From Nitrospirota bacterium (lineage in GTDB: Bacteria; Nitrospirota; Nitrospiria; Nitrospirales; Nitrospiraceae), in contig JACZQN010000010.1 of assembly GCA_022545705.1 (NCBI GenBank), positions 1-34,544 on the forward strand: a stretch of DNA of 34,544 nucleotides, written 5' to 3'. Both the position numbers and the translations under genes were made by a program. The notes under the pieces are model-generated. The model did not search any database. It saw only the letters and a program-made list of their open reading frames with translations, and was not told where the DNA came from. Below, piece by piece: positions 7,496 to 34,254 of this stretch (its first letter is position 1; each line of letters starts with the position of its first letter).

Positions 7496-7503
7496 GGCTA
7501 TCC

Positions 7504-7534
7504 GTTAGCGGTCAGTGGTCATTCGTCATTCGGG
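7504..7534. repeat. GTCATTC heptamer tract at nuoM-nuoN junction
   Basis: On the plus strand GTCAGTG, GTCATTC, GTCATTC run in register. The tract contains the nuoM stop codon (TGA at 7521-7519) and the last codons of nuoM. Confidence 0.75.
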
Positions 7535-9144: not shown

Positions 9145-9159
9145 AGGCGACCCCTAGCA

Positions 9160-9230: not shown

Positions 9231-9233
9231 TGG

Positions 9234-11159: not shown

Positions 11160-11455
11160 TTCAGTAATTGGAACTCGTCCACGTTGATGGTGGACTTGCT
11201 CCGGTACAGTGCGATGATGATGGCAAGCCCGACCGCCACTTCAGATGCCGCGACAGTGAGCGCAAAGAAGACAAACACCTGACCGGCAATGTTCTGGAAG
11301 TAGTGGGAGAACGCCACGAAGTTGATGTTGGTCGCGTTGAGCATCAGCTCGATGGACAGCAGAATGATAATGATGTTGCGGCGGATGAGGACCCCAACGA
11401 CGCCGGTGATGAACACGACGGCGCTCAGAATCACGTAGTATGAGAGCGGCACCAT
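11153..11455 (-). CDS. nuoK: NADH-quinone oxidoreductase subunit K
   Basis: Small three-helix membrane subunit (100 residues, as expected) of the complex I pump module, homologous to MrpC. The two functionally essential membrane glutamates of the family occur at exactly the E. coli positions, Glu36 (LLSIELMLN) and Glu72 (AASEVAVGL). The gene starts 21 bases after nuoJ and overlaps the nuoL start. The upstream tract is a fragment of the TTTTACC heptamer repeat, and no clear ribosome binding site is seen. Confidence 0.97.
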
Positions 11456-11459
11456 CGTC

Positions 11460-11482
11460 GTTATCCGATTACCCTTTTACCT
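11460..11482. repeat. Short TTTTACC heptamer tract at nuoJ-nuoK junction
   Basis: GTTATCC, GATTACC, CTTTTACC run in register on the plus strand. The nuoJ stop codon (TAA at 11479-11477) is part of the AGGTAAAA unit. Confidence 0.6.
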
Positions 11483-11986
11483 GGTGAGGATGTCTTTCTT
11501 GGCCAGGATAATGGCCCCGATCATCGCCACCAACAGAATCAAGGAGGCGATCTCGAACGGGAGGAGGTATGTTGTAAAGAGGGACTCGCCGATCGCTTCG
11601 GTGTTGCCGGTGAATGAAAGCTCGCTGGTCGGCGGGCTCGGAACCACGTCTTCCGAATAGCCGCGTTGGATCGCCAGCACGACCGCCTCCGTCAAGATCG
11701 CCACGCCGAGAAGGGCGCCGATCGGGAATTGGTAGTGGTAGCGGTCTTCGCGCTTCACGTTCAGCAGCATGACCACAAACAGGTACAGCACGAGAATGGC
11801 ACCGGCGTAGACGATGATCTGCACAGCGGCCAGAAACTCGGCGTGGAGCGACACATAGAGGCCAGCCACGTGGAAAAACATGATGAGGAGGGACAGCACG
11901 CTGTAGATAGGATTGCGAAGCCCGACCACGAGAATCGCGGTCAGGACGATCACGCCCGCAAGGTAGAAGAAGAGGAGCTGTGCCAT
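11477..11986 (-). CDS. nuoJ: NADH-quinone oxidoreductase subunit J
   Basis: Five-helix membrane subunit of complex I (homologue of mitochondrial ND6), whose TM3 changes shape during coupling. The conserved EFLAAVQIIVYAGAILVLYLFVVMLL segment is present, including the pi-bulge helix. I start it at the ATG at 11986 (169 residues, MAQLLFFYLAG), because GAGGG lies 9 bases upstream; an in-frame GTG at 12004 adds six residues without a better site. The last sense codon is followed by a stop supplied by the heptamer repeat. It lies between nuoI and nuoK. Confidence 0.95.
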   Translation of the reverse strand: MAQLLFFYLAGVIVLTAILVVGLRNPIYSVLSLLIMFFHVAGLYVSLHAEFLAAVQIIVYAGAILVLYLFVVMLLNVKREDRYHYQFPIGALLGVAILTEAVVLAIQRGYSEDVVPSPPTSELSFTGNTEAIGESLFTTYLLPFEIASLILLVAMIGAIILAKKDILTR

Positions 11987-12065
11987 CGTGTCGGACCCTC
12001 TCACCCTCTGCGCGTCAGCTCACGTTGACTACTACTCGCCCACGGAGAGGGCACGGAGGATCACG

Positions 12066-12605
12066 CTAACTAGGCTTCTGGGGTAACTCCTTGAACGAAA
12101 CGTTGAAGAACGCGACGTTTGGATGTTGCAGTTCCAGTCTCTTCTCCCGGACCTGGAACGATCGGTCACCAATGGCTAAGAGTTGCTGCTTGTTCAGCAG
12201 GAGTTCCCGCTTGTCATAGACGGCCCATTCATATTCGCGGGTCATGGCCAGGGCGTCTACCGGACAGGCTTCGACGCAAAGCCCGCAGAAGAGGCAGCGG
12301 GTCATGTCCATGGAGTACTCTTTGGCGAAGCGCTTGGTGGGTTCACCAGGCACCTCCGAGCTGATCACTTTGATCACGCGCGAAGGGCAGGCAGCCGCGC
12401 AGAGATCGCAGCCGACGCACTTTTCCGTGTCATCGTCGTATCGGAGCAGCGCAAGCATCCCCCGGTAGTTGTCCGGGAGAGTCCGCTTCTCATGGGGATA
12501 CTGGAGCGTTACCGGCTTGTAGTTGATGAGGTGCTTCAGCGTGGACTTCATGCCCACGAGAATCTCGTAGAACGTGATGGTTTTGACCCACTCGCCGAAC
12601 GTCAT
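12066..12605 (-). CDS. nuoI: NADH-quinone oxidoreductase subunit I
   Basis: Ferredoxin-like peripheral subunit carrying clusters N6a and N6b, passing electrons from NuoG towards NuoB. Two CxxCxxCxxxCP motifs are intact: C63, C66, C69, C73 and C104, C107, C110, C114. The 179-residue length fits. The amphipathic N-terminus (GEWVKTITFYEILVGMKSTLKHLINY) lies on the membrane arm. The ATG at 12605 has GAGG 7 bases upstream, one of the clear ribosome binding sites in this operon. It starts 12 bases after nuoH, consistent with a tight operon. Confidence 0.97.
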   Translation of the reverse strand: MTFGEWVKTITFYEILVGMKSTLKHLINYKPVTLQYPHEKRTLPDNYRGMLALLRYDDDTEKCVGCDLCAAACPSRVIKVISSEVPGEPTKRFAKEYSMDMTRCLFCGLCVEACPVDALAMTREYEWAVYDKRELLLNKQQLLAIGDRSFQVREKRLELQHPNVAFFNVSFKELPQKPS

Positions 12606-12617
12606 CAGTCGTCCTCT

Positions 12618-13703
12618 TTACCGAGGGAAGAAGTACGCCGCGATCGCGGTGACCACGATGTTGCCCAGGGCGATCGGGAGCATCACCTTCCATCCGAAGC
12701 GCATGAGCTGGTCATAGCGCAGCCGTGGCAGCGTCGCGCGTATCCAGAAGAACAGGAACAAGAAAAAATAGACCTTGACCGCGAACCACATGATGCCTGA
12801 CAGCCAGGCGAGGTGTTCCAGGGAGCCATGGAACTGAAGAAACGGCGCTGGCGCGTTCCACCCGCCTAAAAAGAGCGCGGCGGCGATGCAGGAAACGAGG
12901 ATCATGTTCGCGTATTCGGCGAGGAAAAAGAATGCGAAGCGCATCCCACTGTATTCGGTGAAGAAGCCGGCCACCAATTCGCTCTCAGCTTCCGGGAGGT
13001 CGAATGGCAACCGATTGGTCTCGGCTACCGCCGAGATCACGAACACAACAAACGCGAGGATCTGCGGAATCGGGACTCCACCACCGCGGGGGACCGCCAG
13101 CCAAAACCAGTTCCAAATCCAGCAGCACTGGTCCTCGGTGATCTTCACGAGGCTCAAGGAACCGGCCAGCAGGAGTACTCCGACGATCGCCAAGCCCACG
13201 TTGAGTTCGTAACTGATCAGCTGAGCCGCGGCTCGCAGTCCGCCTAGCAGCGAATACTTGCTGTTCGAGGCCCATCCGCCCAGAATGATGCCGTATGCGC
13301 CGATCGAGGTAAATGCGAGGATGTAGAGGATGCCGATGTTGATATCACTGATCACGAAGGGCTGCACCTGAACTCCGAACACGTCCACGCGCATGTTGGG
13401 CCCAAACGGGATGACCGCGAAGCCGACCAACGCTGCGACCAGCGCGATGATCGGTGCCAGGGTGAACAGGTATTTGTTGGCGCCGGACGGAATGATGTCT
13501 TCCTTGAAAAAGAGCTTCAAGCCGTCGGCGATCGGCTGCAAGATCCCGTAGGGCCCCACTTCCATAGGCCCCATCCGATCCTGCATCCATCCGATCACCT
13601 TCCGTTCCGCCAACGTGAGGAACATCACTGTGAGCAAGACCACGCCCATCACGATGGAGATTTGGGTAAGCGAAACGGCTATCTTCACTCCAACTTCAAA
13701 CAC
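12618..13703 (-). CDS. nuoH: NADH-quinone oxidoreductase subunit H
   Basis: Membrane subunit forming the quinone channel where the peripheral and membrane arms meet. The family hallmarks are present: [14 protein letters not shown], the [16 protein letters not shown] segment, and the acidic loop [19 protein letters not shown] with [10 protein letters not shown] after it. The length of 361 residues is slightly above the E. coli subunit. The start is GTG at 13703 with GGAG 6 bases upstream. It lies 14 bases after nuoG. Confidence 0.97.
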
Positions 13704-13717
13704 GGTTTCTCCAAAGT

Positions 13718-16384
13718 TCAGACCTTCTCCACCTTCACCTGCGTCGTCTTGAAATACGGTGCTCCGGTCTGCGGGTCAGGGCTCACACTCAGCAGGCGCC
13801 GCACCTCCTGATCAAAATGCTCGGGGAACACTGCCTGTCCTTCAGGCACGCGGTCCCGCACCTGTACACTCGTGGTCATCTGGCCTCGGGCGTTGGAAAG
13901 CCGGACCTGGTCCCCCTCGGCAATGCCCAGCAGAGTTGCATCGGCCGGGTTCAATGCCAGCGCGCCAGCCTTCTGGAGTTCCAGCAGGCCCTTGGCGCGG
14001 GTGGACAGTTTCCCCGAATGAAAGAGGCTCTGCGCGACCACTAAGGTCAAATTCCCCGCTTGCCGGTCCGTCGAGCTGGACAAGCTATATCGGCTGGTCA
14101 CGTCTTCGGCGAACCCTTTCTTGAGATAGCCCTCGACGACTGCTGCATCAGGGCGTGGGGGGATCGGCGCCGGCCCCAGGAGGCCGTAGCCCGAAATGAG
14201 GCTCCGGATTTCCTTCAGGATCTCTCTGGGCTCGCGGTACTCAATCGGATAGCCGAGCAGTACCGAGAGAGCGGACAGGATCTCCCAGTCGGGACGGCTT
14301 TCGCCAACGGGTTCGATGGCTTGCCGGACTGACTGCACGTGGCCCTCAGTGTTGGTAAAGGTTCCTGACTTTTCGGCGTAGGAGCAGGCTGGAAGCACCA
14401 CATCTGCCAGTGCCGCTGTCTCGGTGAGAAACAGTTCCTGGCAAACGAGGAGCTCCAGACGCTCGAGTGCTTCCTTCGCCCGTGCGGCATGGGGCAGCGT
14501 TCCCACTGGATTTTCGCCAACCACAAACAGGACTTTGACGGTCCCCGCTCGTGCATCATCGAGAATTTCCATCAGGGTTCTACCGGGTGTCTGTGGCAAC
14601 TCTTCCTTCCAGAGACCCGCGATCCGCTCGCGAACGGCTTGGTCGGTCAGGTCACCGGGCCCCGGGAGAAATTCTGCGACGGTGCCCATTTCGACCGCGC
14701 CCTGGTCGTTGTTCTCCTCCGCCAATGGGGCAAGCCCGCACCCGGGACGGCCATGGTGTCCTGTGAGCAGCAACAGGTCGAGCAGCGTGGTGGTCACGCC
14801 GCTCCCGCCCGGTGCCCGTAGCACCCCCTGGCCGACGAGGATCACGGCTCGGGGGGCGTCCGCGAACGCGCGGGCAGCCGCACGGAGCGCGCTTGAAGTC
14901 GAGCCGGTCGCCTGTTCAATTGCCGACCAGGGAAGGCATCTCACCGCTTCACTGATCGCCTTTACGTATTCAGGGGCCCGTTGTGTGAGGGATGGATCCA
15001 CAAGCCCTTCCTCCACGACTCCTTTGATGAGGCCTAGGACAGCGTCCCCGAACCGCTCGGGGTGCGCGGTTACATGATGCGCCGCAAGATTCGTGATGTT
15101 GCTAATGGTCCCGATGGCCGGTTGCAACGCTTCAACCGTCACCAAGACGGCCCCACGCTTTTTGACCGCCTCTTTGACCTTGAGGCCGGTGATCGGATTG
15201 GTCTCGGTGATGTTCGTACCCACAAGCAGCAGAGCGTGGGCGGAAACGATGTCCTCGAACGCGATGGTCCAGCGATGGGTACCCTGCACCCGGAGGAGCG
15301 CCCGAACTCCATTGATGTGGCCGTAGCGGGCGCTGCTGTCGAGTTGGTTGGTGCCGATGACCAGGCGCATGAATTTCTGGAAGACATAGAGGTCTTCGTT
15401 CGTGCAACGGGACGCGATGAGGCCGGCGAACGCCGTCGGGCCGTGCGCGAGCTTCAAGCTGAGGCAGGTCTCCGCGATGAACTCGAGCGCTTCCTCCCAG
15501 GTGGTCTGGACCAGCGCCCCATTGCGCCGAATGAGCGGATGCTGCAGTCGGTCCGGATGGGTGCTCACGTGGTATCCGAAAAACCCTCGTGGGCACAGGT
15601 CCCCGTTGTTCCGGCCAGCTCCGTGGGAGGAGTTGACCTCGATCAGCTCGTTTTCCTTCGTTTGAATGGTGATCTGACAGCCATCGCCGCAGTAGGTGCA
15701 AATCGTGTCGGCGCGTTTGAGCATCCAGGGCCGAAACTCGTACATGGACAGCCGGCTGGTGATGGCGCCGACGGGGCAGATCTGCACGCACCCTCCACAA
15801 AATTCGCAGTCGAGCTCATGGATGGAGAAGTGTTTGATCTCGGTCATGGTCCCACGACCGGACGGCGCCAGCGCCTTCACATCCATCACCTCGTCGCAAT
15901 ACCGGACGCAGCGCAGACACTGCACGCACCGATTCATCTCTGTCTCGATCAGCGGGCTGAAGTATTCCTTCTGAAAAATCCGCTTGACCTCGACGAACCG
16001 GCTGGTGGTCGGGGTAGATTCATGGGAGAAATCTTGGAGATCGCAGCGACCGCCCTGATCGCAGACCGGGCAATCCAAGGGATGATTGGCCAGAATGAAT
16101 TCCAAGATGGATTTGTGCGCTTCGTTGACGACCGTGGTTGCCGTGCGGACGACCATGCCTTCAGCGACCGGCGTGCTGCACGAGGTCTGAAGCTTCGGCA
16201 CCTTCTCGATCTCAACCACGCACATGCGACAGTTGGCGTCGGGCTTGAGCTTGGGGTGGTAGCAGAAGTGAGGGATCATCACGCCCATCTGGCGCGCGGC
16301 TTCAATGACGAGGGTTCCCTTGAGGGCCGTGACCGGCACCCCATCAATCGTCAGCGTAACGGTTTCAATCGCGACATCCGCCAT
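13718..16384 (-). CDS. nuoG: NADH-quinone oxidoreductase subunit G, with additional Fe-S motif
   Basis: The large iron-sulfur subunit of the NADH-oxidising arm (888 residues). N-terminal ligands: [2Fe-2S] C41, C52, C55, C69; the His-Cys3 cluster H101, C105, C108, C114; then two full CxxCxxCxxxC sets, C153/C156/C159/C163 and C193/C196/C199/C203; then C229, C232, C236, C264 (the N7-type site leading the molybdopterin-like domain). E. coli and mitochondrial homologues have only three cysteines plus one in the third region, giving a single cluster; here eight cysteines predict two, as in FeFe-hydrogenase and formate dehydrogenase partners. Residues from about 225 form the molybdopterin oxidoreductase fold with its C-terminal dinucleotide-binding domain; in complex I this domain does not usually carry Mo. 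The start at 16384 has only a weak upstream purine stretch. An octamer repeat separates it from nuoF. Confidence 0.96.
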
Positions 16385-16396
16385 CGCTTTAGTCTC

Positions 16397-16487
16397 GCAA
16401 TTGATTCATTGTTTCATTGCTCCATTGAGTCATTGGTTCTTTGAGTCAATGATCCAATCGTCAATCACCCCATGACTCAATTCTTCA
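16397..16487. repeat. Octamer tract between nuoF and nuoG
   Basis: On the plus strand ATTGATTC, ATTGTTTC, ATTGCTCC, ATTGAGTC, ATTGGTTC, TTTGAGTC, AATGATCC follow each other in a period of 8. The first 18 bases of the array (16400-16417) recur exactly at 20855-20872. The right end contains the nuoF stop codon. Confidence 0.85.
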
Positions 16488-17792
16488 ATGCCTGGCCAAC
16501 GCGGGTTCCGGTGTAATGAGCTCCGCAGCTTCCGCTGCCTCGATCAACTCTTCATATTCGTGCCGCCAGTATTGGAGCGTGCTCAAGATTGGCGCGACCT
16601 CGGCGTCACCGAACGCGCAAATGGTCCGGCCCACAATGTTCTTGCACAACTCCGTGAGGGTATCGAGGTCCTCATGGCGTCCGCGTTTGGCCATGATGCG
16701 ACGCAGCGTTTGTACGAGCCAGGAGCTCCCTTCCCGACAGGGTGTGCACTTGCCGCACGATTCATGATAGAAGAACTCCATCAGCCGGAGCGCCGCCCAG
16801 ACCATGCTGGTCCCTTCTTCCATGACCGTGACGCCGCCGGAGCCCAGCATCGAGCCAGCCTGCGCGACCGATTCAAAGTCCAGCTTGACCTCGAGATGTT
16901 GGTCAGTGAAAAACGCGGCCGAGGCTCCACCGGGGATAATGGCCTTGAGAGGCTTATCGGACCTCATTCCGCCCGCGTGGTCAAAGATCAATTCGCGGAA
17001 CGTGATACCCATCGGCACTTCGTAGTTACCCGGCCGTTTGACGTGCCCGCTTACGCAGAAAATCCTAGTGCCGGTGCTCCGCGGGGGCGACCCGATGGAC
17101 GCAAACCACTCAGGACCCCTGTTCAGGATATGGGGCAGGTTCGCCAACGTCTCGACGTTGTTGACCACGGTCGGCTTGTTATAAAGACCGTGCGTGGCGG
17201 GGAACGGAGGCTTCACCCGTGGCAGACCGCGCTTCCCCTCCAGTGATTCTAACAAAGCGGTTTCCTCTCCGCAGATATATGCGCCAGCCCCTCTGTGCAC
17301 CCACACGTCGAGGTTAAAGCCAGTGTCCAGGATGTTCGTGCCGAGATAACCGGCTGCACGGGCTTCGCCTAGCGCTCGTTCTAAGATCTGGGCACCGAGC
17401 ACAAACTCACCGCGAATATAGATGTACCCGATCTCGGCGCCGATGGCGTAACAGGTGATGACGATACCCTCCAGCATCTGATGCGGGTCACGCTCCATTA
17501 ACTGGCGATCCTTGAAGGTGCCAGGCTCGCTCTCATCCGCGTTACAGCACAGGTATCGGGGGCCCTGGTAGTCCTTGGGCAGGAATTCCCATTTCACACC
17601 CGTCGGGAAACCCGCGCCTCCACGGCCACGCAACCCCGATTTCTTGACCATCTCGGTGACATCGGCCGGCGCGATTTTTCCCAGAACTTTACGCAACGCC
17701 TGGTATCCTCCGGCCCGCTCGTAGTCGGCCAGCGAACCCGTGTACCCGGGCGTCGACATGTTCTTCAGCAGTATCAGCTCGTGTGTAGGCAT
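16485..17792 (-). CDS. nuoF: NADH-quinone oxidoreductase subunit F
   Basis: The NADH dehydrogenase subunit, which binds NADH, FMN and cluster N3 and starts electron flow in complex I. It has 435 residues. GRGGAGFPTGVKW (56-68) is the NADH/FMN glycine loop, NADESEPGTFKDR (84-96) and AYICGEETAL (171-180) are FMN-site signatures, and C346, C349, C352 with C392 ligate the [4Fe-4S] cluster in the C-terminal four-helix domain. The ATG at 17792 has a modest GAAG upstream. A short C-terminal tail rich in Glu and Ala ends inside the octamer repeat. It lies between nuoE and nuoG. Confidence 0.97.
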   Translation of the reverse strand: MPTHELILLKNMSTPGYTGSLADYERAGGYQALRKVLGKIAPADVTEMVKKSGLRGRGGAGFPTGVKWEFLPKDYQGPRYLCCNADESEPGTFKDRQLMERDPHQMLEGIVITCYAIGAEIGYIYIRGEFVLGAQILERALGEARAAGYLGTNILDTGFNLDVWVHRGAGAYICGEETALLESLEGKRGLPRVKPPFPATHGLYNKPTVVNNVETLANLPHILNRGPEWFASIGSPPRSTGTRIFCVSGHVKRPGNYEVPMGITFRELIFDHAGGMRSDKPLKAIIPGGASAAFFTDQHLEVKLDFESVAQAGSMLGSGGVTVMEEGTSMVWAALRLMEFFYHESCGKCTPCREGSSWLVQTLRRIMAKRGRHEDLDTLTELCKNIVGRTICAFGDAEVAPILSTLQYWRHEYEELIEAAEAAELITPEPALARH

Positions 17793-17801
17793 TGTCTTCG
17801 C

Positions 17802-17855
17802 AAGGTAAAAGTTCGGACTTACATTTTTGCCTTTTTACTTTTACCTTTTTACTTG
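17802..17855. repeat. Inverted AAGGTAAAA tract between nuoE and nuoF
   Basis: A short left arm AAGGTAAAAGT faces a longer right arm of TTTTTGCC, TTTTTACT, TTTTACC units across AAGT-tcgg-ACTT (17809-17820). The last three sense codons of nuoE (Val-Lys-Arg) and its stop are made of this repeat. The layout parallels the tract at 9160-9230. Confidence 0.75.
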
Positions 17856-18377
17856 TTGTAACTCCGGCTGCGGGAACATGAACGGTCCGCTCTTCAAAGA
17901 GCATGTACCGTCCCGCTTCAGATCGGCGAGGATGCGATCGACTTTCTCTTCCGTCAGTTGCTCGTAATACTCCTCATTCACTTGCATCATCGGACCGGTC
18001 CCGCAGGAGGCCAGGCACTCCACCGTGCTGAGTGTAAACAGCCGGTCCGGAGTGGTTTCGCGGGGCCTGATCCCCAATCGAGCCTGGAGCCAACCGACTA
18101 GCGTATCGGAGCCGACCAGCGCGCACATGAGGGACCTGCAGACCTGAATATGGAATTTGCCGATTGGCTTCAGGTTCAGCATCGTATAGAACGTGACGAC
18201 CTCGTACACCTGGGAAGGCGTCAGACGTAAAATCCTCGCGATCTCCTTCATGGCCGACTCGCTGACGTATCCGTCTTCGCGCTGTGCGAGATTCAGCAGT
18301 GGCAGCAGCGCCGACCGCCGCACGGGATACCGACTCAGAATCTCGTTGATGTGGTCTGTATACTTTTCAAGCAACAT
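17841..18377 (-). CDS. nuoE: NADH-quinone oxidoreductase subunit E
   Basis: The 24-kDa thioredoxin-like subunit holding the off-pathway [2Fe-2S] cluster N1a, partner of NuoF. C80, C85, C121 and C125 match the family ligand pattern (CRSLMC and CLASCGTGPM). It has 178 residues, with the expected N-terminal helical domain (LLPLLNLAQREDGYVSE). The ATG at 18377 follows GGGT at some distance, a weak site. Its C-terminus QQVKR is encoded by the heptamer repeat. It follows nuoCD after 117 bases of inverted repeat. Confidence 0.97.
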   Translation of the reverse strand: MLLEKYTDHINEILSRYPVRRSALLPLLNLAQREDGYVSESAMKEIARILRLTPSQVYEVVTFYTMLNLKPIGKFHIQVCRSLMCALVGSDTLVGWLQARLGIRPRETTPDRLFTLSTVECLASCGTGPMMQVNEEYYEQLTEEKVDRILADLKRDGTCSLKSGPFMFPQPELQQVKR

Positions 18378-18403
18378 GAATGACCCGCTGCAACATTACT
18401 TTC

Positions 18404-18490
18404 ACCAGTCAATGGTCATTGGTCTATAGTCAATGGGTGAGGAAAATCCATGGAAGTGAAAGGGCCTTGCCTAACCAATGACCATTGACG
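18404..18490. repeat. Inverted TCAATGG tract between nuoCD and nuoE
   Basis: TCAATGG, TCATTGG, TCTATAG, TCAATGG run as heptamers on the plus strand. GTCAATGGTCATTGGT (18408-18423) has an exact 16-base inverted copy at 18474-18489, with a 50-base loop between them. In the operon transcript this would fold into a strong stem between the two cistrons. Confidence 0.85.
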
Positions 18491-18494
18491 TTCT

Positions 18495-20249
18495 TTAACG
18501 GTCGCACTCGCCCATCACGACGTCATAGGTGCCGAAGATCGTAATGATGTCTGAGATCAGATACCCCCGCGCCATGTGATCAAAGGCACCCATGTGGACG
18601 AAGGACGGAGAGCGGATTTTCATCCGGTACGGTCGCGGGCTCCCATCACTGATGAGGAAGAATCCCAGTTCTCCCTTCGGCGCCTCAGTGGCGCAGTAGG
18701 TCTCCCCCTTGGGGGGCTTAAAGCCCTGCGTGAAAATGATGAAGTGGTGAATCAGGCTTTCCATATCCCGCATCACTTTCTGTTTGGACGGGGGGGTGAC
18801 CTGGGGGACGTCCGCCACCAGCGGCCCGTCCGGCATCTGGGCCAGGCACTGGCGGATGATGCGGCAGCTCTGGCGCATTTCTTCCATTCTGACCCAGTAC
18901 CGGTCGTAGGTATCGCCGTTCTTCCCGATCGGCACTTCCCATTCGACTTTGTCGTACGCGTCGTAGGGTTCAAGCTTTCGGACATCATAGGCGACGCCGG
19001 AGCCCCTGAGCACGGGCCCGGTGAGCCCGAAGTTGATCGCGTCGTCCCCGGAGATCACCGCGACGTTCCTGGTACGGGCGAGCCAGATCCGGTTCGACTT
19101 GAGCAGCTCATCGTACTCGCGAACGCGGTCAGGAAAGGTGTCAAGGAATGCGTTCACTCTCGACACCAGGTCAGGCGTGAAGTCACTGTCCACGCCTCCG
19201 AAGCGATAGTAGTTGAGGGTCAACCTGGCGCCACACAACTTCTCGAACAGGTCCAGCAGAACTTCACGCTCTCGGAACGTCCAGAAGAACACGGTCATCG
19301 CGCCAATATCCATCGCTTGAGTCCCGAGCCAAAATAGATGGCCGATGATCCGTTGCATCTCGGCGACGAGTGTGCGGATGTATTGCGCCCGTTCGGGAAT
19401 CTGAATGTTCAGCAGCTTCTCCACGGCCCGGACGTAAGCATAGTTGTTGGTCATCGAGCAGACGTAATCGAGCCGATCCGTGTGCGGGATGATTTGCATG
19501 TAGGCCAGGCCCTCGGCCAGTTTCTCCACTCCCCGGTGCAGATACCCGAGGTCGGGCGTGGCCTTCACGATCCGCTCCCCGTCCAGCGCGAGCACGACTC
19601 GAATCACGCCGTGTGTGCTGGGGTGCTGGGGCCCCATGTTCAGCAACAGCTCTTCCTTGCGGTAGGGAGAGGAAACCGAGCCCGCGTCGGACGAGAAGAC
19701 TTGCCTTTGTGCCTCGGGTACTTCTCCGTGAGGGGGCCCACCCTCCTTGTCGTCCATGTTCGGAAGAAACTCGAACCGGCTCCGCCATCCCCTCCCCTCC
19801 GTCGGGAAGTCTTTCCGTAGCGGATAGCCCTCGTCGTAATCCTCAGGCATGAGGATCCGCCGCAGGTCGGGATGTCCGGTGAACCGGATTCCCATGAGGT
19901 CATAGACCTCGCGCTCCAAGAAGTTGGCCCCTTTCCAGATGCCCGTGACGGAGGCGATGGAGGCATCGTCCTCAGTGACGCGGGCCTTCAGGCGGATACG
20001 GGTGTGGTGGGGCAGCGAGAGCAGATGGTAGATGACCTCGAACCGCTCGGCGTCATCCGGATAGTCGGCGGAGCAGATGTCGGTGATATGGTCAAAGGCG
20101 GTCGTCGGATCGTCGTGGAGGAATCTGGCCACATCCACAATCCGGTCCGCGGCCACGCAGGCGGAGATTTCCGAGCGCGCTTGATCTTCGTGCACGGAAA
20201 GCACCGCCTCCGGGAATCTGCTGTTCAGGGTTTCGAGTACTGGATGCAT
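18495..20249 (-). CDS. nuoCD: NADH-quinone oxidoreductase subunit C/D fusion
   Basis: A fused 30-kDa (NuoC, about 1-165) and 49-kDa (NuoD, about 195-584) subunit, joined by a charged linker, as in E. coli. NuoC shows WKGANFLEREVYDLMGIRF. NuoD shows NMGPQHPSTHGVIRVVLALDGE (204-225), LGYLHRGVEKL (234-244), the conserved arginine in HTDRLDY (Arg259), and the C-terminal GDVV-type end MGECDR. NuoD lines the quinone pocket next to cluster N2. Arg259 corresponds to the arginine methylated by NDUFAF7 in mitochondrial NDUFS2, and a gene of that family leads this operon. The start at 20249 has no strong Shine-Dalgarno; the leader is heptamer repeat. Confidence 0.97.
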   Translation of the reverse strand: MHPVLETLNSRFPEAVLSVHEDQARSEISACVAADRIVDVARFLHDDPTTAFDHITDICSADYPDDAERFEVIYHLLSLPHHTRIRLKARVTEDDASIASVTGIWKGANFLEREVYDLMGIRFTGHPDLRRILMPEDYDEGYPLRKDFPTEGRGWRSRFEFLPNMDDKEGGPPHGEVPEAQRQVFSSDAGSVSSPYRKEELLLNMGPQHPSTHGVIRVVLALDGERIVKATPDLGYLHRGVEKLAEGLAYMQIIPHTDRLDYVCSMTNNYAYVRAVEKLLNIQIPERAQYIRTLVAEMQRIIGHLFWLGTQAMDIGAMTVFFWTFREREVLLDLFEKLCGARLTLNYYRFGGVDSDFTPDLVSRVNAFLDTFPDRVREYDELLKSNRIWLARTRNVAVISGDDAINFGLTGPVLRGSGVAYDVRKLEPYDAYDKVEWEVPIGKNGDTYDRYWVRMEEMRQSCRIIRQCLAQMPDGPLVADVPQVTPPSKQKVMRDMESLIHHFIIFTQGFKPPKGETYCATEAPKGELGFFLISDGSPRPYRMKIRSPSFVHMGAFDHMARGYLISDIITIFGTYDVVMGECDR

Positions 20250-20251
20250 AT

Positions 20252-20348
20252 CTTGGTCAATGGTCAGTTGTTATGAGTCAATGGTCGCTTGTGAATGCTC
20301 ATTGGTCATCTGTTATTCGAGCACCATTGACGAGTGACGGATGACGCC
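20252..20348. repeat. Heptamer tract between nuoB and nuoCD
   Basis: On the plus strand, ten heptamers run in register (TTGGTCA, ATGGTCA, GTTGTTA, TGAGTCA, ATGGTCG, CTTGTGA, ATGCTCA, TTGGTCA, TCTGTTA, TTCGAGC). After one extra base come units in the opposite orientation (CCATTGA, CGAGTGA, CGGATGA). It fills nearly the whole intercistronic gap. Confidence 0.85.
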
Positions 20349-20353
20349 TTTCC

Positions 20354-20833
20354 CTATTTCACGAAGACTTTCTCCCGTTGAATCTTCTCCTGCAGCTTGA
20401 GCAACCCATCCAGCAATGCCTCCGGTCTCGGTGGGCAGCCTGGCACATAGACGTCCACAGGAACGATTTGGTCCACGCCCTGCACGACGCTGTAGCTGTT
20501 GTAATGGTTGCCGGACGTGGCGCAGGAGCCCATCGAGATGACGTACCGGGGCTCGGGCATCTGATCGTAGATCCGGCGGATCACCGGAGCCATCTTTCTC
20601 GTCACGGTGCCGGCCACGATCATCAAGTCGGATTGTCGGGGAGAGGCGCGGAACACCCCTGCGCCGAACCGGTCGATGTCGTAGCGAGAGGCCACGGTCG
20701 CGATCATCTCGATCGCGCAGCAGGCCAGCCCGAAAGTCATCGGCCAAAGCGACGACTTGCGTGCCCAATTTGTGAATGCATCGAGGGTGGTCGTCATCAC
20801 ATTCGCTTCGAGTTGCCGCTCAAACATGCTCAT
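20354..20833 (-). CDS. nuoB: NADH-quinone oxidoreductase subunit B
   Basis: The subunit carrying cluster N2, the last electron carrier before quinone. The unusual tandem cysteines C38-C39 (GLACCAIEM), with C104 (MGSCATSG) and C133 (VPGCPPRPE), are all present, in a 159-residue protein of normal length. The conserved [11 protein letters not shown] segment is intact. The ATG at 20833 has a good GAGG 5 bases upstream. It lies between nuoA and nuoCD, with repeat tracts on both sides. Confidence 0.98.
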
Positions 20834-20844
20834 GGCTTCCTCAA

Positions 20845-20922
20845 GAATTGTCTCATTGATTCATTGTTTCATCGGATCAATGACGCCATCGTCAATCATC
20901 CAAATCTTACAATCGATGATTA
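20845..20922. repeat. Octamer tract between nuoA and nuoB
   Basis: ATTGTCTC, ATTGATTC, ATTGTTTC, ATCGGATC run in a period of 8, then degenerate AATGACGCC, ATCGTC, AATCATCC. It shares the exact 18-mer ATTGATTCATTGTTTCAT (20855-20872) with the nuoF-nuoG tract at 16400-16417 and ends over the nuoA stop. Confidence 0.8.
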
Positions 20923-21291
20923 CTCCCACTCCAAGGCTCCTTTTTTCCAGGCGTACCAATAGCCGACGAGCAGAATCCCGATAAACAATCCCATCTCGAG
21001 TAACCCTAACAAGCCAAGTTGTTTGAAGCCCACTGCCCACGGAAACAGGAATACGAACTCGATGTCGAAGATGACGAACAACATAGCGATGATGTAATAC
21101 CGCATCGGAAACGGAACCCGCGCGTCAGAGAAGAGCGGGCTGCCGCTTTCGTAAGGGGTCAGCTTGGCGGGGTAGGGATGACTGGGCCGGGCAATCGAGC
21201 CGATGAGCAGCGAGATGACGGCAAACGCCACGACGATCGCCATAAACAGGAGAATCGGGATGTAGTTGAGCGGGACCGCTTCGTTTGCCAT
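20920..21291 (-). CDS. nuoA: NADH-quinone oxidoreductase subunit A
   Basis: Three-helix membrane subunit (123 residues) next to NuoH at the quinone entry. PYESG (47-50 region), the RYYIIAMLFVIFDIEF helix with Asp76 and Glu78, and FLFPWA are diagnostic. It is the first structural gene of the operon. The ATG at 21291 directly follows a heptamer repeat, and no Shine-Dalgarno-like purine run precedes it, which is odd for the lead subunit of a large operon. The start is supported by the family's usual N-terminus length. Confidence 0.97.
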   Translation of the reverse strand: MANEAVPLNYIPILLFMAIVVAFAVISLLIGSIARPSHPYPAKLTPYESGSPLFSDARVPFPMRYYIIAMLFVIFDIEFVFLFPWAVGFKQLGLLGLLEMGLFIGILLVGYWYAWKKGALEWE

Positions 21292-22754: not shown

Positions 22755-25445
22755 CTATCGTCCGTGGCATTTCTTGTACTTTTTCCCGCTTCCGCAGGGG
22801 CAGGGATCGTTCCGTCCGACCTTCTCCTGGAGCCGGTGGACAGTTTGCGGAGGAGACGGTTGGTCACCGCGGTTGAGAGTCATCCTGGCGGGTCGCTGCA
22901 GTTGGGGTGCCGTTGGCGGCACCTCGCCCCTGACGGCCTTCACATGAAACAGGCGGTCGAGCACGTCGCCTTTGATCCGGTCCATCATCGCCGAGAACAT
23001 GTCGAACCCTTCCCGTTTGTATTCGATCAAGGGGTCCTTCTGCCCGTATCCTCGGAGACCGATGCCGTCTCGGAGCTGATCCATGCCCAACAGGTGGTCC
23101 TTCCAGTGGTGATCGATCACCTGGAGTAACACCATTTTTTCCAGTTGGCGAAGCAAGTCCGTGCCGAGTTCTTCCTCTTTGCCGGAGTAGACCTTCAGAA
23201 CCTGGTCCCGCAGCTCTTCCTTGAGCGCGTCTCGCCCCATGTCCTTGAGATCATCCGCCCCGTCGCTGAGGTCAAGTGCGAACTGTCCTTGCAGTGCTTC
23301 TCTGAGGCTCGAGAAGTCCCACTCCTCCGGATATTGATCCTTCGGGCAGTACGCGTCGACGAGGGAATCTATCACCTGGCCGAGCATGTCTCGAATTTCA
23401 TCGGAGAGGTTGTCTCCATCGAGGAACGCATGCCGATGTTGGTAGATGACTTCGCGCTGTTTGTTCATGACGTCGTCATATTCCAGAAGCTGTTTGCGAA
23501 TATCGAAGTTATGCGCTTCGACCTTCTTCTGGGCATTCTCGACTGCCCGGGTGACCATCCGGTGCTCGATGGGCACACCTTCTTCCATGCCAAGTTTCAG
23601 CATGAGACTTGAGACGCGCTCGGAGGCGAAGATCCGCATCAGGTCATCTTGGAGGGACAGGTAGAATCGCGAGGAACCGGGGTCCCCTTGCCGGCCAGAG
23701 CGTCCGCGAAGCTGATTGTCGATCCGTCGGCTTTCATGCCGTTCCGTACCCAGGATATGGAGCCCCCCTTGCGCGATCACCTCCTGCTTATCGGCTTCGC
23801 ACTGCTCTTTGATTTCTTCGTAGATGGCCTTTTTCCGGTCCTCGGAAAGGTTCTCGTCTTGATACAGGATTCGTTTGAACAGAAAATCAGGGTTGCCACC
23901 AAGGACGATATCCGTGCCCCGGCCCGCCATGTTGGTCGCGATCGTCACGGTGCTCTTTTGCCCAGCCTGTGCGATGATCTCGGCTTCCTTCTCATGGTGC
24001 TTGGCGTTGAGCACGTTGTGTTTGATCCCCTGCCGTGTGAGGTAACCCGCTAAGCGCTCCGAATTCTCGATCGAGATCGTCCCGACGAGCACCGGTTGGC
24101 CGCGCTCGTGACAATCCTTGATCTCTTCGACGATGGCCGTGAATTTCTCTTTTTCAGTCCGGTAGATGACATCGGGGTAGTCCGTCCGGATCATAGGACG
24201 ATTCGTGGGAATGACGTTCACATCAAGGTTGTAAATTTTCGCGAACTCACTGGCCTCCGTGTCCGCCGTGCCTGTCATGCCGGCCAATTTGCCGTACAAG
24301 CGGAAGTAGTTCTGGAACGTGACCGAAGCCAGGGTCTGGTTCTCGTTCGCGATCTTGACGCCTTCTTTTGCCTCGACGGCCTGGTGGAGCCCGTCGCTCC
24401 AGCGGCGTCCGGGCATCATGCGGCCGGTGAATTCATCCACGATAATGACCTCTCCATCCTTCACGACGTAGTCCACATCGCGCTTGTAGAGCGAGTAGGC
24501 CAGGAGGGCTTTCACGACATGGTGCACGAGGTCCATGTGGGCGAGATCATACAGGTTATCCACCCCGAGCAACTTTTCAACGCGGGCATTGCCTTCCTCG
24601 GTAAGGGAGGCAGTTTTGGTCTTCTCTTCGACCGTGTAATCGCGCTCGAACTTGAGCTGCGGGATGATCGCGTTGATCCGGTAATAGAGATCAGTGGATT
24701 CCTCCGTGGGGCCGGAGATGATCAACGGGGTACGCGCCTCATCGATGAGGATGCTATCGACCTCGTCCACGATGGCGTAATGTCTTCGCTGTACGCACTG
24801 CCTGATGTCGGCGACGATCAGATTATCACGCAGGTAATCGAAGCCGAATTCGTTGTTGGTCCCGTAGGTAATATCGGCCTGGTAGGCCTCTTGACGCGAA
24901 CAGGGACGGAGGTGCTGGAGCCGTTTGTCGGGCGCGTCATACCCGGGATCAAACAGGGCGGAGGCCTCATGCTGGCTCACGCCGACGCTGAGACCCAGGG
25001 CGTGGTACACGGGGCCCATCCATTGCGCGTCCCGCTTTGCGAGGTAGTCGTTGACGGTGACCAGGTGGGTGCCCTTCCCGGAGAGCGCGTTTAAATAGAG
25101 CGGAAGAGTCGCCACGAGGGTTTTGCCCTCGCCTGTTTTCATCTCGGCGATCTTGCCCTGGTGCAGCACGATGCCGCCCAGAAGCTGGACATCAAAATGC
25201 CGCATCGCCAATTGGCGCCGGGATGCTTCTCGGCAGACCGCAAACGCCTCCGGCAGCAAATCGTCGAGAATTTCGCCCGCCTCCAACCGCTTTCGGAAGG
25301 CTTCAGTCTTGTCCATCAGCGCAAGATCGGAGAGGGAGGTCACCGTGGGTTCAAGGCTGTTGATGTGTTCCACGGTCGGCCACAGGCGCTTGATCTCGCG
25401 CTCGTTTTTGCTCCCAAAGACCAGATTGAGAAGCGATGCCAGCAT
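22755..25445 (-). CDS. secA: Preprotein translocase ATPase SecA
   Basis: The motor that pushes preproteins through SecYEG. It has 896 residues, a normal length. Walker A is MKTGEGKT (102-109), the DEAD-box region reads [21 protein letters not shown], and the second helicase half holds [13 protein letters not shown] and [20 protein letters not shown]. The C-terminal zinc-binding tail that contacts SecB and phospholipids is present, with C882, C884, C893 and H894 in [13 protein letters not shown]. The ATG at 25445 has GGGG about 10 bases upstream. It is divergent from the small secreted-protein gene at 25605, and the two share a 159-base promoter region. It lies upstream of the nuo operon on the same strand. 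Confidence 0.98.
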
Positions 25446-30487: not shown

Positions 30488-30736
30488 TTATTTCATCCGC
30501 GTGGCTTCTTTCACCGGCGGCTCGATCTTGATTTGCGGACCCTGGACCTTGGGCAGGCGTCCCGCACCGGGCTTTGCCAGCACCCGCTTATTATTTTGAT
30601 TGATCGAGAGGTTTTGCATCGAGTGCGAGTCATCGAACTTCGCCGCACTTGCCAAGGCATCGTCCCCGACTGCGTTGGCCTGGCCGGTGTCGTTTGCAAA
30701 TCCAGAGGCCGGATAGCCTGAGTGCGTGGGGAGCAT
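30488..30736 (-). CDS. Small hypothetical protein
   Basis: I do not recognise this 82-residue protein. It is hydrophilic, with no signal peptide or membrane segment; the N-terminal half is rich in Gly, Ala, Asp and Asn, the C-terminal half is basic and proline-rich (RLPKVQGPQIKIEPPVKEATRMK). Codon use looks like real coding sequence (third positions mostly G or C), and a strong terminator begins 30 bases after the stop. The ATG at 30736 has no clear ribosome binding site, and the protein may be the remaining part of a longer secreted protein. A TTGACA lies on the minus strand at 30772-30767 without a matching -10. Confidence 0.5.
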   Translation of the reverse strand: MLPTHSGYPASGFANDTGQANAVGDDALASAAKFDDSHSMQNLSINQNNKRVLAKPGAGRLPKVQGPQIKIEPPVKEATRMK

Positions 30737-30814
30737 GGATGGATTCGCGAAAGCGAAGGAGGAGAGGTGTCAAGAGTGAAGGATGTGGAAAGGCAGTACG
30801 GGGACGATGCTCGC

Positions 30815-32668
30815 TCACCGCCTGCGTGGCGGGCGCTGCCTTCTTCCCCGCCGACGATAGAGGCCGCCTCGCGGAGCTGAGGTTGGGAGGCTGATGATCA
30901 CGGATGTGCCCTGGCCAGGTCCACTGGCGATGGAAATCTGCCCTTGGTGCTCTTCCACGATTTTCTTCACCGAGGCCAGCCCTAAGCCGGTCCCCGCCCG
31001 CTTGGTGGTGAAGAACGGTTCGAACACTTTCCCGACGTGCTCGATCGGGATCGGGGCACCATCGTTCTGGATGGTCATCTGAAGATAGTGACGCTTCGAT
31101 TTCTGCCGGGCTACCTCGATGTGGAGATGCCCCCCGGGTATCATGGCTTCGAGCGAGTTCTTGAAGATGCTGAGGAAGACTTGCTGCATCTTCGTTTCGT
31201 CGCACCGCACCAAGCCGAGGTTGGCGCCGTAATCCTTTGTCACGCGAATACGGTTGGCCTCCATCTCGGTGGCGACCACCGTCAACGCGTTCTCGATCAA
31301 ATCTGGCGCGCGGCATGGTCGCCGATGAAGCTCTAGCGGTTTTGCAAAGTCCAAGATCTCGTTCAGAATGGCCTCGACACGGATAAGATCCCGCATCGCA
31401 TTTTCAACTCGGGTCTGCGGGTCAAAATCGAGAATCCCCTCGCCCGTGACCTCCTCCATTTGGGCTCTAATGGACGCCAGTGGCTCCCGGATCTCGGTCG
31501 CCAGAAAGGCGCTGAACTCGCCAAGGGCCGCCTGCCGTTCTTGCTTCCTGATTAGGGGTTCGGAAGGAAGTGGGGCACCAGGCGCCGCAGCGACTTCTCC
31601 AGCCTCTTCGGTTTCCGGTCGAGCGCGCTGGGCGGGTGACGGCTCCTGAAGAAGCTCGACAACCTTCGAGATCAAGGGTTCCAGCAAGCGTGCGTCCGGC
31701 ACCGCGTACTGCATCTCAGTCATGGAGGCCAGCGTAATCGTTCCTCCCACTTGACCTCGTACGAAAAAGGGCACCACGATGGCCGATCGAAACTGATCAC
31801 GGTATAAAGGCTTATGGTCTAGAAAGCGTCCCTGAGTCGAAGCCAGGCCGTGGTCCAGGCGAGGCTTCCGATGACGGACCGCCCAGCCCGACGCTGAAGC
31901 GTCCAGGGCCCACCGCTGGCCTGGCTTGAGGTCTTTTCGATGATCCCCCTTTTGTGCAACCTGGTGTTCATCTGCAATCCCGAGAACTTCCACCGTCCCG
32001 GCGAGGGGATCGTACGTTGTCACCCAGGCGCGATCGAAGGGCAGGATAGTCGCGGCCTCAAGGAGCAGAGCGGCAATGCGTTGTTGCATCTCCGGCGTTG
32101 AGTAGGAGGGTGTCGGCGCGAGTTGGGCCCCGCCAAGGGAGGCGGTCGAGGTCATGGGTTCTGAAGCCACGAGGGGAGGACTGAGGATCGAGGTTCCATC
32201 GAATAGGGCTGCCTTGTCCAGGGCATTCGTGATGTCTTCCCCTGCGCTCTCCAACAGGCTTTTCTCTTTTTTCGCAAAGGCGGCAGTCTCTTTTCGCCCG
32301 ATAACCAGGGTCCCGTAAGTCCGCTGTCTGTATCGGAGCGGAATTCCGAGCAGGGACTTCACCCCTGGGACGATCATGCGCAGACGGACAACCCTGGACG
32401 ACTCCCTCTCGGGAAGGGAAGCCAAGGCGCTTTCCGCCAGCACCTCCTGAATCGAAAGCGTTCTTAGAATCGCCTCGACTTCACGGGGGGAGAACCCGAT
32501 GGACCCCTGGAGCATCAGCGGACCGCCCTCCCGGTCGAAAATGGCAATGAGGGCGGCGTCCACCCCGAGCTCGTTCAATGCGGTGGTCAACGTTCTCTGA
32601 AGCGTCGTCTGCTTGTGTTGTTGGATCGTGGACCTGCTGACGCGTGGTTGTGGGGCGGCTATGTCCAT
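30815..32668 (-). CDS. Two-GAF sensor protein of histidine-kinase architecture, phospho-acceptor His missing
   Basis: A soluble 617-residue protein: GAF domain 1 (about 20-150), linker, GAF domain 2 (about 190-340), a dimerisation helix pair (about 375-445) and an HATPase_c domain (about 452-595). The ATP-binding boxes look sound: N box IFKNSLEAM (Asn504), G1 NDGAPIP, F box FEPFFTTK, G2 GTGLGLASVKKI. In the H box, however, where relatives read H-E-I-R-N-P, this protein reads T391-E-I-R-E-P, so the phosphorylated histidine is replaced by threonine. The protein may be a pseudokinase, a signalling ATPase, or a partner in a heterodimer. The C-terminus is strongly basic (RRRGRRQRPPRRR). No response regulator is adjacent. 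A promoter with correct spacing lies upstream. Confidence 0.88.
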   Translation of the reverse strand: MDIAAPQPRVSRSTIQQHKQTTLQRTLTTALNELGVDAALIAIFDREGGPLMLQGSIGFSPREVEAILRTLSIQEVLAESALASLPERESSRVVRLRMIVPGVKSLLGIPLRYRQRTYGTLVIGRKETAAFAKKEKSLLESAGEDITNALDKAALFDGTSILSPPLVASEPMTSTASLGGAQLAPTPSYSTPEMQQRIAALLLEAATILPFDRAWVTTYDPLAGTVEVLGIADEHQVAQKGDHRKDLKPGQRWALDASASGWAVRHRKPRLDHGLASTQGRFLDHKPLYRDQFRSAIVVPFFVRGQVGGTITLASMTEMQYAVPDARLLEPLISKVVELLQEPSPAQRARPETEEAGEVAAAPGAPLPSEPLIRKQERQAALGEFSAFLATEIREPLASIRAQMEEVTGEGILDFDPQTRVENAMRDLIRVEAILNEILDFAKPLELHRRPCRAPDLIENALTVVATEMEANRIRVTKDYGANLGLVRCDETKMQQVFLSIFKNSLEAMIPGGHLHIEVARQKSKRHYLQMTIQNDGAPIPIEHVGKVFEPFFTTKRAGTGLGLASVKKIVEEHQGQISIASGPGQGTSVIISLPTSAPRGGLYRRRGRRQRPPRRR

Positions 32669-32746: not shown

Positions 32747-33142
32747 TTAATTGATCACGCGGGGCGGCTTCGGCCGATGGATGACGATCTCCATGCGCCC
32801 CTGTTCCGAAACCCATAGGTTCAGGATGCCGCTGACCAAGCTGATCAAAATGGCACCGCCGATCGATGACCAGAACCCAGTGACCACAAATCCCTTGACC
32901 AGGAAGGCGACCAACAGCAGAAGTAGGGCGTTGATCACCACCATGAACACCCCTAGGGTGAGAACAATGAATGGAAGCGAGAACAGGTACAGAATTGGCC
33001 GGACCAGCGCATTGAGCATCGCAAGCACGATGACGGCAGCGAGGCCGGCCGAGGCGCTCTCCACTTCAATGCCCGGGATGATCGCGCTGGCCAGGAGCAC
33101 AGCGACGCCGGTGACAGTGAAGCGGATCAGCAGGCCTCTCAT
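32747..33142 (-). CDS. YvlD-type membrane protein (phage holin family 4 superfamily)
   Basis: A small protein of 131 residues with four predicted membrane helices and the family pattern I-P-G-I-E-V, then LAMLNALVRPILYLFSLPF and LTLGVFMVVINALLLLL. Databases call this family 'phage holin', but members such as YvlD are chromosomal membrane proteins of unknown role, and nothing else here is phage-derived. Its ATG overlaps the stop of the upstream cytochrome gene (ATGA), so both are co-translated. A role in envelope stress is known for some members of the family in Gram-positives; here it is open. Confidence 0.85.
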   Translation of the reverse strand: MRGLLIRFTVTGVAVLLASAIIPGIEVESASAGLAAVIVLAMLNALVRPILYLFSLPFIVLTLGVFMVVINALLLLLVAFLVKGFVVTGFWSSIGGAILISLVSGILNLWVSEQGRMEIVIHRPKPPRVIN

Positions 33143-34254
33143 GACGGGCTCATGAAGTCCACAGTCGCTTGACGCTTGGCCACTTTGTCATTGGGATCGT
33201 AGTTCGCGACGATCTCTTTTTGGAGGCCGCCCGCGGAGACTGCGATCCGGACGCCCGCGTCTTCATTGTGGAGGTGGATGAAAATTTCATAGTAGCCTTG
33301 CTCGTTTGCCTTCGCGCTTGCCGCATGACCGTGTTTCTTGAGCGGCGTGGCCTTGACTTCGACTCCCGGGAGCGGCTTCCCAAGCCTGTCCCTCACGTAC
33401 CCATAGACAATGAAGCCATGCTCCACTTGGGTTTTCAGGAACACGGGGCGGGGCGTCTCGACCGCCGGATTTTTCAGCGTACTCATATAGGCAGCCAGCG
33501 CGTTGACTTCTTCGTCCGACATCAGATCCTTGTACTTATCGGGCATCTGCCCTTTTTTGTGTTGCTTTTCAAAGCCCTCGGCATAGAGGTAGGCGGGATC
33601 GAGCACCTTCTTCTTGAGGTCCTCGATGGTCAGGAGGCTGCCAATATTGTCCAGCTTGGGACCGCGTTTCTTCACGCTCCCCTTGCCGCCGATCTTGTGG
33701 CAGTTGTAGCACTCGTAGAGATCATACACTTCTTGGCCTCGCGCAACCAAGGTCATCGGCCCAGAGGTAGGTTTCAGTGAGTCCGCAAAGGTTCCTGCAT
33801 CGGGGCTTGCGGCTGGAGCCAGCCGGTTTAGCCGTGCCGTGAGAGATCGGAGCTTCGCCTCCAGGGCTTCTGCCTGCCTCAGGGACTCGTCGAGGCGCTC
33901 CCGTTCAGGCAGCACCTTCGCCCGTTTCGCCTTCAACAGTTTCGCGATCTTCCCCTTTTCAACCTCGGGATCGTATTGCGGCCACAGCGACGCTCCGCCG
34001 ACGTAGACAACGGAGAGAATGGCATAGAAGACCACAAGCGCGATAAGGGCCTTGACTCCACTCACCGGCTTCACCGGAGGGGCATCCAAGAGAATGAACA
34101 CCGCGGCTCCCAGCATCGCGTAGGTAAAGAACATCGCTTGAAACACGGGCGGAAACGCCAACGCCTTGGCCAGTGCGACGAGGATGCCCCCGACCACGAT
34201 ACCAACAACGCCCTTCTTGAGGATGATCTTCATGAAAGTCATTTGCTTCGCCAC
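33139..34254 (-). CDS. Membrane-anchored cytochrome c fused to a carboxypeptidase-regulatory-like domain
   Basis: A 371-residue protein with an unusual order: three N-terminal membrane helices (about 14-35, 40-57, 67-88), a charged coiled coil (about 97-145), a class I mono-heme cytochrome c domain (about 165-262) with heme site C182-Y-N-C185-H186 and candidate axial Met237 or Met245 (GQMPDKYKDLMSDEE), and a C-terminal beta-sandwich (about 278-366, GYVRDRLGKPLPGVEV... GYYEI) of the carboxypeptidase D regulatory type. It should sit on the periplasmic face and carry electrons; the partner is unknown. The start is GTG at 34254 (GGGAG upstream); the ATG at 34242 with GAGGT is equally likely. It is translationally coupled to the YvlD-like gene. 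A candidate promoter lies upstream. Confidence 0.88.
   Translation of the reverse strand: MAKQMTFMKIILKKGVVGIVVGGILVALAKALAFPPVFQAMFFTYAMLGAAVFILLDAPPVKPVSGVKALIALVVFYAILSVVYVGGASLWPQYDPEVEKGKIAKLLKAKRAKVLPERERLDESLRQAEALEAKLRSLTARLNRLAPAASPDAGTFADSLKPTSGPMTLVARGQEVYDLYECYNCHKIGGKGSVKKRGPKLDNIGSLLTIEDLKKKVLDPAYLYAEGFEKQHKKGQMPDKYKDLMSDEEVNALAAYMSTLKNPAVETPRPVFLKTQVEHGFIVYGYVRDRLGKPLPGVEVKATPLKKHGHAASAKANEQGYYEIFIHLHNEDAGVRIAVSAGGLQKEIVANYDPNDKVAKRQATVDFMSPS

Follow-up and report, generated by a model that had tools for sequence, protein, structure and literature searches.

A probable GAF-GAF pseudo-histidine kinase with threonine in place of the phospho-acceptor histidine, conserved across an order of Nitrospirota

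The kinase-like gene and its neighbourhood

The window, by which we mean the whole stretch of DNA that was analysed, is 34,544 bp long and makes up the entire contig on which it lies. On its minus strand it carries a gene for a 617-residue protein, with GAGGA, a ribosome-binding-like sequence, 5′ of the ATG. Pfam places two GAF stretches, HisKA and HATPase_c on this open reading frame, in agreement with the original prediction of a two-GAF histidine-kinase-like protein, and the resulting domain order is GAF-GAF-DHp-CA. The HATPase_c match is clear (82.6 bits) and the HisKA match borderline (27.5 bits against a cut-off of 26.9); no PAS domain was matched at E ≤ 0.001. The features of the locus are as follows.

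30815 to 32668, minus strand: pseudo-histidine kinase gene, an ORF of 617 amino acids
32216 to 32611, minus strand: GAF domain 1, residues 20 to 151 (Pfam PF01590/PF13185; a folded domain in the structural model)
31655 to 32083, minus strand: GAF domain 2, residues ca. 196 to 338 (second Pfam GAF stretch, with borders set by us)
31331 to 31555, minus strand: DHp (HisKA) helical hairpin, residues 372 to 446 (Pfam HisKA at 382 to 443, with the helices of the model)
31496 to 31498, minus strand: codon of Thr391, which replaces the phospho-acceptor histidine (sequence and orthologue alignment)
31484 to 31486, minus strand: codon of Glu395, which replaces the HisKA phosphatase Asn/Thr at H+4 (alignment)
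30881 to 31201, minus strand: HATPase_c (CA) domain (Pfam; N504, F and G2 boxes kept, G1 Asp changed to Asn535)
30818 to 30874, minus strand: Arg-rich C-terminal tail, residues 599 to 617 (net charge of the last 20 residues)
30491 to 30769, minus strand: remnant of a small exported protein gene after the kinase gene, with start and signal peptide missing here
32747 to 33142, minus strand: upstream neighbour, a PF04020 (phage-holin-4-like) membrane protein (Pfam)

The AlphaFold model (mean pLDDT 80, pTM 0.38) has the same order of two GAF domains, helical hairpin and CA domain, with the DHp helices at residues 373 to 409 and 415 to 442. When the whole length of the model was searched with Foldseek, bacteriophytochromes and WalK ranked first; matches to the kinase core include ZraS-ADP, DivL, HK853 and ThkA. 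In GAF2, G261, W262, R265 and H266 are invariant in a 49-sequence alignment, and His266 is present in all 95 rows of families f1 to f3 (of four, f1 to f4) that have letters there. When the family alignment was used as a profile against the PDB, the best 60 of 71 matches were all to the kinase core, and so gave no hint as to the GAF ligand. An apparently invariant N-terminal motif, S-T-I-Q-Q-H-K, was suggested by a conservation line and then rejected, given that 96 of 97 f1 to f3 rows have a gap at His18.

Downstream of the kinase gene, the remnant frame starts about 50 bases past the stop codon. Relatives carry intact copies of the gene for this small exported protein (...ANPALLPKHPGYP...), and a second copy is present in the window genome (G000:C78). 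The protein is encoded within about 0.8 kb after the kinase in 66 of the 75 loci counted (48/50 in f1, 10/14 in f3, 8/8 in f2 and 0/3 in f4), a count that takes in those of 101 loci with at least 700 downstream bases or a hit and is thus slightly biased to hits. It was matched in 37 of the 148 phylum genomes sampled, each of them f1 or f3. On the upstream side, the first shared ORF is the PF04020 gene in 15 of 16 long f1 or f3 regions, and farther upstream an annotated relative has cytochrome c, carotenoid-synthesis, epimerase and polyprenyl-synthetase genes. A functional hint from linkage to respiration or lipid synthesis was considered and dropped, as the neighbours have no clear common role; their linkage suggests co-inheritance and gives no indication of function.

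Within the window, positions 33139 to 34254 encode a cytochrome c with, as judged by eye, an apparent N-terminal membrane part and, at the C terminus, a weak carboxypeptidase-regulatory-like match (22.4 bits, below the cut-off). A cytochrome c gene of this type also lies about 3 to 5 kb upstream of the kinase gene in two mapped f4 regions. A cluster for NADH:quinone oxidoreductase (nuo) occupies positions 6014 to 21291 on the minus strand, near secA (22755 to 25445).

The original prediction had also remarked that no response regulator is nearby, and indeed no Response_reg match at E ≤ 1e-5 was found on the window's contig (34,544 bp). Receivers were searched for in four genomes, namely, the window genome, which has 18 receiver-domain matches, G155, G041 and G006. 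In G041 the closest one is ca. 36 kb distant and in G006 ca. 85 kb, and there is none on the 45-kb contig of G155, in which the gene sits near the contig end. The lack of a linked response regulator speaks only weakly against an orthodox kinase; orphan kinases exist.

Residues of the kinase core across the order

Orthologues, some of them cut by contig ends, were found in 222 of the 235 genomes of the order and in all 37 genera, a match being defined as E ≤ 1e-40. At this threshold, 13 of the 235 genomes had no match, some of them more than 90% complete. In G267, the match is split into two pieces. The gene is kept in small, kinase-poor genomes, such as G155, G006 and G203, which have 8, 10 and 9 first-look kinase candidates, respectively. 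In a phylum-wide sample of 245 genomes, the matches listed from outside the order covered the kinase core only, at ca. 31 to 40% identity. Two close relatives with named records carry the label Nitrospirae bacterium, and two other records match the core only, at 27%. We aligned 101 orthologues, drawn from the 222 matching genomes, over half of which lie outside the alignment; it leaves out two fragments (L069 and L116), two named records that are apparent duplicates (L040 and L041, of L012 and L013) and orthologues that were not fetched.

The H box of the window protein reads F-L-A-T391-E-I-R-E-P, with Thr at the phospho-acceptor position as originally read. Alignment with homologues, proposed at the time as a check, confirmed that this is not a peculiarity of a single strain: among the 101 orthologues, residue 391 is Thr in 84, Gln in 7, Ala in 4, Gly in 2, Ser in 2, Met in 1 and His in 1. 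By family, the site is Thr in 71, Ala in 2 and Met in 1 of the 74 f1 sequences; Thr in 13 and Ala in 2 of the 15 f3 sequences; Gln in 7 and His in 1 of the 8 f2 sequences; and Gly in 2 and Ser in 2 of the 4 f4 sequences. All four Thr codons are used for Thr391 across the orthologues, which indicates that Thr is kept at the protein level. Nevertheless, in a tree of 66 of the 101 rows, built with the site column omitted, Ala or Met arose on at least three separate branches within the Thr clades. As a rule, then, histidine is absent from the site, and Thr is preferred yet dispensable.

Close homologues with His would have made Thr391 a strain-specific loss. None was found: the sole aligned orthologue with His is L063 (from G055), a partial sequence of another family (f2) cut by a contig end, in which the G1 box is altered too and H+4 is Arg. 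Its sister in the tree is a Gln sequence (SH-aLRT support 88, although the program cautioned that the long f2 and f4 branches might be joined falsely), and the two codons are CAC for His and CAG for Gln. On these sequences, the histidine of L063 could be either a reversion or an ancestral relic.

The position after the site (H+1) is acidic throughout, being Glu392 in the window protein and Glu or Asp in 101/101 orthologues. The H+4 residue, which PMC3510030 describes as needed for phosphatase activity in HisKA kinases, is Glu395 in the window protein and, across the 101 orthologues, Glu in 88, Arg in 9, Pro in 2, Asp in 1 and Gln in 1; Asn or Thr occurs there in none. Nor did we find, by sequence, a different histidine that might serve in the DHp of the window protein (residues 372 to 446). 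A DHp histidine occurs in 19 of the 101 rows, with no more than 5 rows sharing any single position. The sequence of the window protein thus excludes autophosphorylation on a DHp histidine.

For comparison, we took 49 control kinase cores, comprising 9 kinases of the window genome, the ten nearest from outside the order and 30 of 145 HisKA matches in four relatives. The histidine is present in 48 of these cores, the G1 Asp in 49 and Asn or Thr at H+4 in 48, figures to be read with the fact that the 30 relatives' cores are higher-scoring matches and so lean towards canonical boxes. Identical cores, a fragment (L158) and those HATPase_c matches of the window genome that the core profile missed are not among them. 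Two cores depart from the rule, namely, L010, which is a second degenerate kinase of the window genome, and L189, where the His is present but H+4 is Glu.

The N, G1, F and G2 boxes had all been taken as conserved, and this holds for three of the four. The window protein keeps N504, the F box (FEPFFTTK) and the G2 box (GTGLGLA), while its G1 reads N535-D-G-A-P539 rather than the usual D-x-G-x-G. The first G1 position is Asn in all 96 f1 to f3 rows that have letters there, against Asp in 49/49 control cores; N504 is likewise kept in 96/96 such rows. We did not take this Asn to prove that ATP is no longer bound, however, because the solved kinase ThkA reads N-S-G-P-P-I-P at this place; since ThkA shares this G1 type, nucleotide binding can be compatible with an Asn-type G1. 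In f1 to f3, the N, F and G2 boxes are kept better than a pure scaffold would require. With an Asn-type G1 also found in ThkA, their retention leaves room for binding of ATP and even for phosphorylation of a partner in trans. In f4 (L065 to L068), 4/4 rows have neither the His nor the N box (with Cys in place of N504), and G1, F and G2 are lost in the 3 rows that cover them; these 3 rows have a Pfam GAF match in the second position and a partial HATPase_c match below the cut-off. Given that the f4 gene persists without ATP-binding boxes, the function that the families have in common does not have to rely on catalysis with ATP.

Within f1, mean dN/dS was 0.018 for the DHp, 0.044 for the CA domain, 0.065 for GAF2 and 0.094 for GAF1 (75 to 77 close pairs, which are non-independent), making the DHp the most constrained part of the protein. 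In ten genomes, DHp identity averages 0.92, as opposed to 0.82 in an orthodox kinase of the same ten genomes (the type of G000:C90, the single orthodox type used); the corresponding values for pseudokinase and control are 0.71 and 0.68 for the CA domain and 0.60 and 0.63 for the N-terminal part. On sequence identity, the surface around the lost phospho-site is held more tightly than in the orthodox control, although strong conservation of the DHp does not by itself identify what is bound. The C-terminal tail is also distinctive. The last 20 residues have a net charge of at least +5 in 99/99 assessable orthologues (2 of the 101 have ends that run off and were skipped), and in f1 it averages +7.8. 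By comparison, 58 control kinase ORF ends average +0.4 and reach +4 at most; this set contains some duplicates, some hybrid kinases and some ORFs truncated where a locus ends. The basic tail is kept in f4 too, in the three rows whose end is present.

Known histidine kinases and possible modes of action

NifL works by binding, not by phosphotransfer, and its sensor domains differ from the GAF-GAF arrangement of the window protein. It is a sensor with a histidine-kinase-like core, solved in complex with the regulator NifA (9qq6), and its match to our protein is weak (E 3.2e-12 by sequence). By name, the best sequence matches of the core are of the ZraS and AtoS type (185.8 bits for AtoS and 146.7 bits for ZraS), and ZraS (9jfj) is also the best PDB match by sequence; these scores are nonetheless far below the curated cut-offs (646 bits for AtoS and 479 for ZraS), and the His, the G1 Asp and the H+4 Asn/Thr are all replaced in the window protein. 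ThkA of Thermotoga (3a0r) has a similar core and the same Asn-type G1 but has His at the aligned place, and was solved in complex with the response regulator TrrA.

DivL of Caulobacter and other Alphaproteobacteria (PDB 4q20) likewise has a HisKA-type DHp-CA core with the phospho-acceptor replaced, and the window protein's core matches it both by sequence and by fold. According to PMC4211667, DivL homologues have Tyr at the acceptor position, with an Ala exception, and DivL lacks kinase and phosphatase activity, binds TNP-ATP weakly and recognises a phosphorylated response regulator. The two differ in that our family has Thr, with Ala and Met exceptions, and in that DivL has PAS sensors, where the window protein has two GAF domains, an altered G1 box and an Arg-rich tail. 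Moreover, DivL is not the nearest solved relative, as ZraS, ThkA, FixL chimaeras, KinB and others score better. The window protein is not a member of the DivL family proper.

Compared with an orthodox HisKA kinase, the window protein keeps the acidic H+1 residue and the N, F and G2 boxes and lacks the histidine, the H+4 Asn/Thr, the usual G1 and, on its 34.5-kb contig, a linked response regulator. It fits a pseudo-histidine kinase in that it has the histidine kinase fold, with the acceptor replaced in its orthologues and a core under selection (in f1 and in the ten-genome comparison). Its sequence describes what would be a soluble GAF-GAF sensor on a histidine kinase dimer scaffold, devoid of both the autophosphorylation histidine and the HisKA phosphatase residue.

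We think it probable that the protein, whose core is kept by selection, is a pseudo-histidine kinase that works by binding partners, as DivL does. Because the His-less form is kept in nearly all sampled relatives, signalling probably proceeds by partner binding rather than by phosphate transfer. Most likely, the protein would be a catalytically inactive cytosolic dimer in which GAF1 and GAF2 sense a small ligand. The ligand signal would alter the conformation of the DHp/CA scaffold, whose DHp surface would bind a partner, which might be another kinase, a response regulator or some other effector. In f1 to f3, the CA domain has probably retained nucleotide binding, with the nucleotide in a structural or regulatory role, and the Arg-rich tail probably adds a contact to a polyanion or an acidic partner. 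Among the three modes first proposed for the protein, interaction gives the best fit, phosphorylation of a partner in a heterodimer stays on as a lesser candidate and phosphorylation of Thr is improbable as a general mechanism.

One bolder, albeit rather unlikely, version is an order-wide, phosphorylation-independent sensor in which a GAF ligand, and perhaps ATP or ADP, would be read out by the His-free DHp dimer together with a polyanion-binding Arg-rich tail (the polyanion being nucleic acid, membrane lipid or other). If so, a two-component kinase would have been turned into a one-protein switch in the core regulation of the order.

It is unlikely, in our estimate, that the CA domain is instead active and phosphorylates the histidine of another kinase in a heterodimer, the protein then being a one-way kinase subunit. 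Retention of N504 in every f1 to f3 row with letters, of the F and G2 boxes and of Glu or Asp after the site would suit such a role, as would the Asn-type G1 of ThkA. Heterodimers are also known; PMC12189002 and PMC9491836 describe them for RetS/GacS and for ChrS/HrrS, respectively, the latter reporting that a catalytically dead, laboratory-evolved truncation of ChrS alters signalling via a second kinase, with heterodimers seen by two-hybrid assay. A linked kinase is possible in some relatives, since G029 has a HisKA match ca. 7 kb from the pseudokinase gene. Against this, no other HisKA lies within 10 kb of the gene in G018, G050 or G041 among the matches listed, the window's contig has no other HATPase_c match, and f4 keeps the gene without the ATP boxes. 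Partner kinases of the same GAF-GAF type, which the original prediction had proposed to look for, were not found in the window genome at E ≤ 0.001. The ten other matches to the protein at this threshold comprise nine to the kinase core and one (G000:C79) that reaches into GAF2, with 28% identity over residues 293 to 443; G000:C79 is cut by a contig end and, when read by eye, shows a single GAF-like region along with a normal His box.

That Thr391 is itself the phospho-acceptor, signalling through an O-phosphate, we consider very improbable. Thr is found in 84 of the 89 aligned f1 and f3 sequences, with all four of its codons, as might be expected of an acceptor. The remainder of the 89, however, have Ala (4) or Met (1), on at least three branches, and Gln, Gly and Ser occupy the site elsewhere; the replacement of Thr by Ala and Met on several branches makes Thr phosphorylation unlikely as the mechanism. 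We know of no precedent for HisKA chemistry on Thr. Still less probable is an ordinary kinase that uses a different histidine: His266 in GAF2 and His574 in the CA domain are conserved, but His574 belongs to a CA helix that follows the G2 box, outside the DHp, and within the DHp the window protein has no histidine and its orthologues share none widely. A decaying gene or a strain-specific loss, finally, is scarcely credible, in that the degenerate ATP boxes of f4, the 13 genomes without a match and the split match of G267 stand against dN/dS far below 1 in every domain within f1, retention in 222/235 genomes and Thr in 84/101 aligned sequences; the selection data refute decay in f1 and the distribution does so for the order, and the distribution, together with the residues at the site, likewise led us to reject strain-specific loss of the histidine.

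Significance and a second degenerate kinase

Regulation in Nitrospirae has been little studied. We found no description of the GAF-GAF pseudo-histidine kinase family in the open-licence PMC literature among the matches listed, in which DivL predominates in papers on bacterial pseudo-histidine kinases. The present family, spread through an order and not closest to DivL, adds another deeply conserved pseudo-histidine kinase, with natural Thr, Ala, Met, Gln, Gly, Ser and His variants at the site. These variants, together with the graded loss of the ATP boxes, make histidine kinase function without phosphotransfer testable by comparison. The occurrence of Thr is more general than the view from a single genome could show.

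The window genome also encodes, outside the window (L200, positions 770 to 2773; G000:C53), a second degenerate kinase, in this case a hybrid. Its H box reads G-V-V-V-E-H-F-Q-N, with Glu at the aligned His position. Its receiver is weak, scoring 26.7 bits in one scan (below the 30.2 cut-off) and 31.1 bits (just above) in another, and contains the stretch T-N-V-L-M-P, in which Asn stands where the phospho-Asp would presumably be expected.
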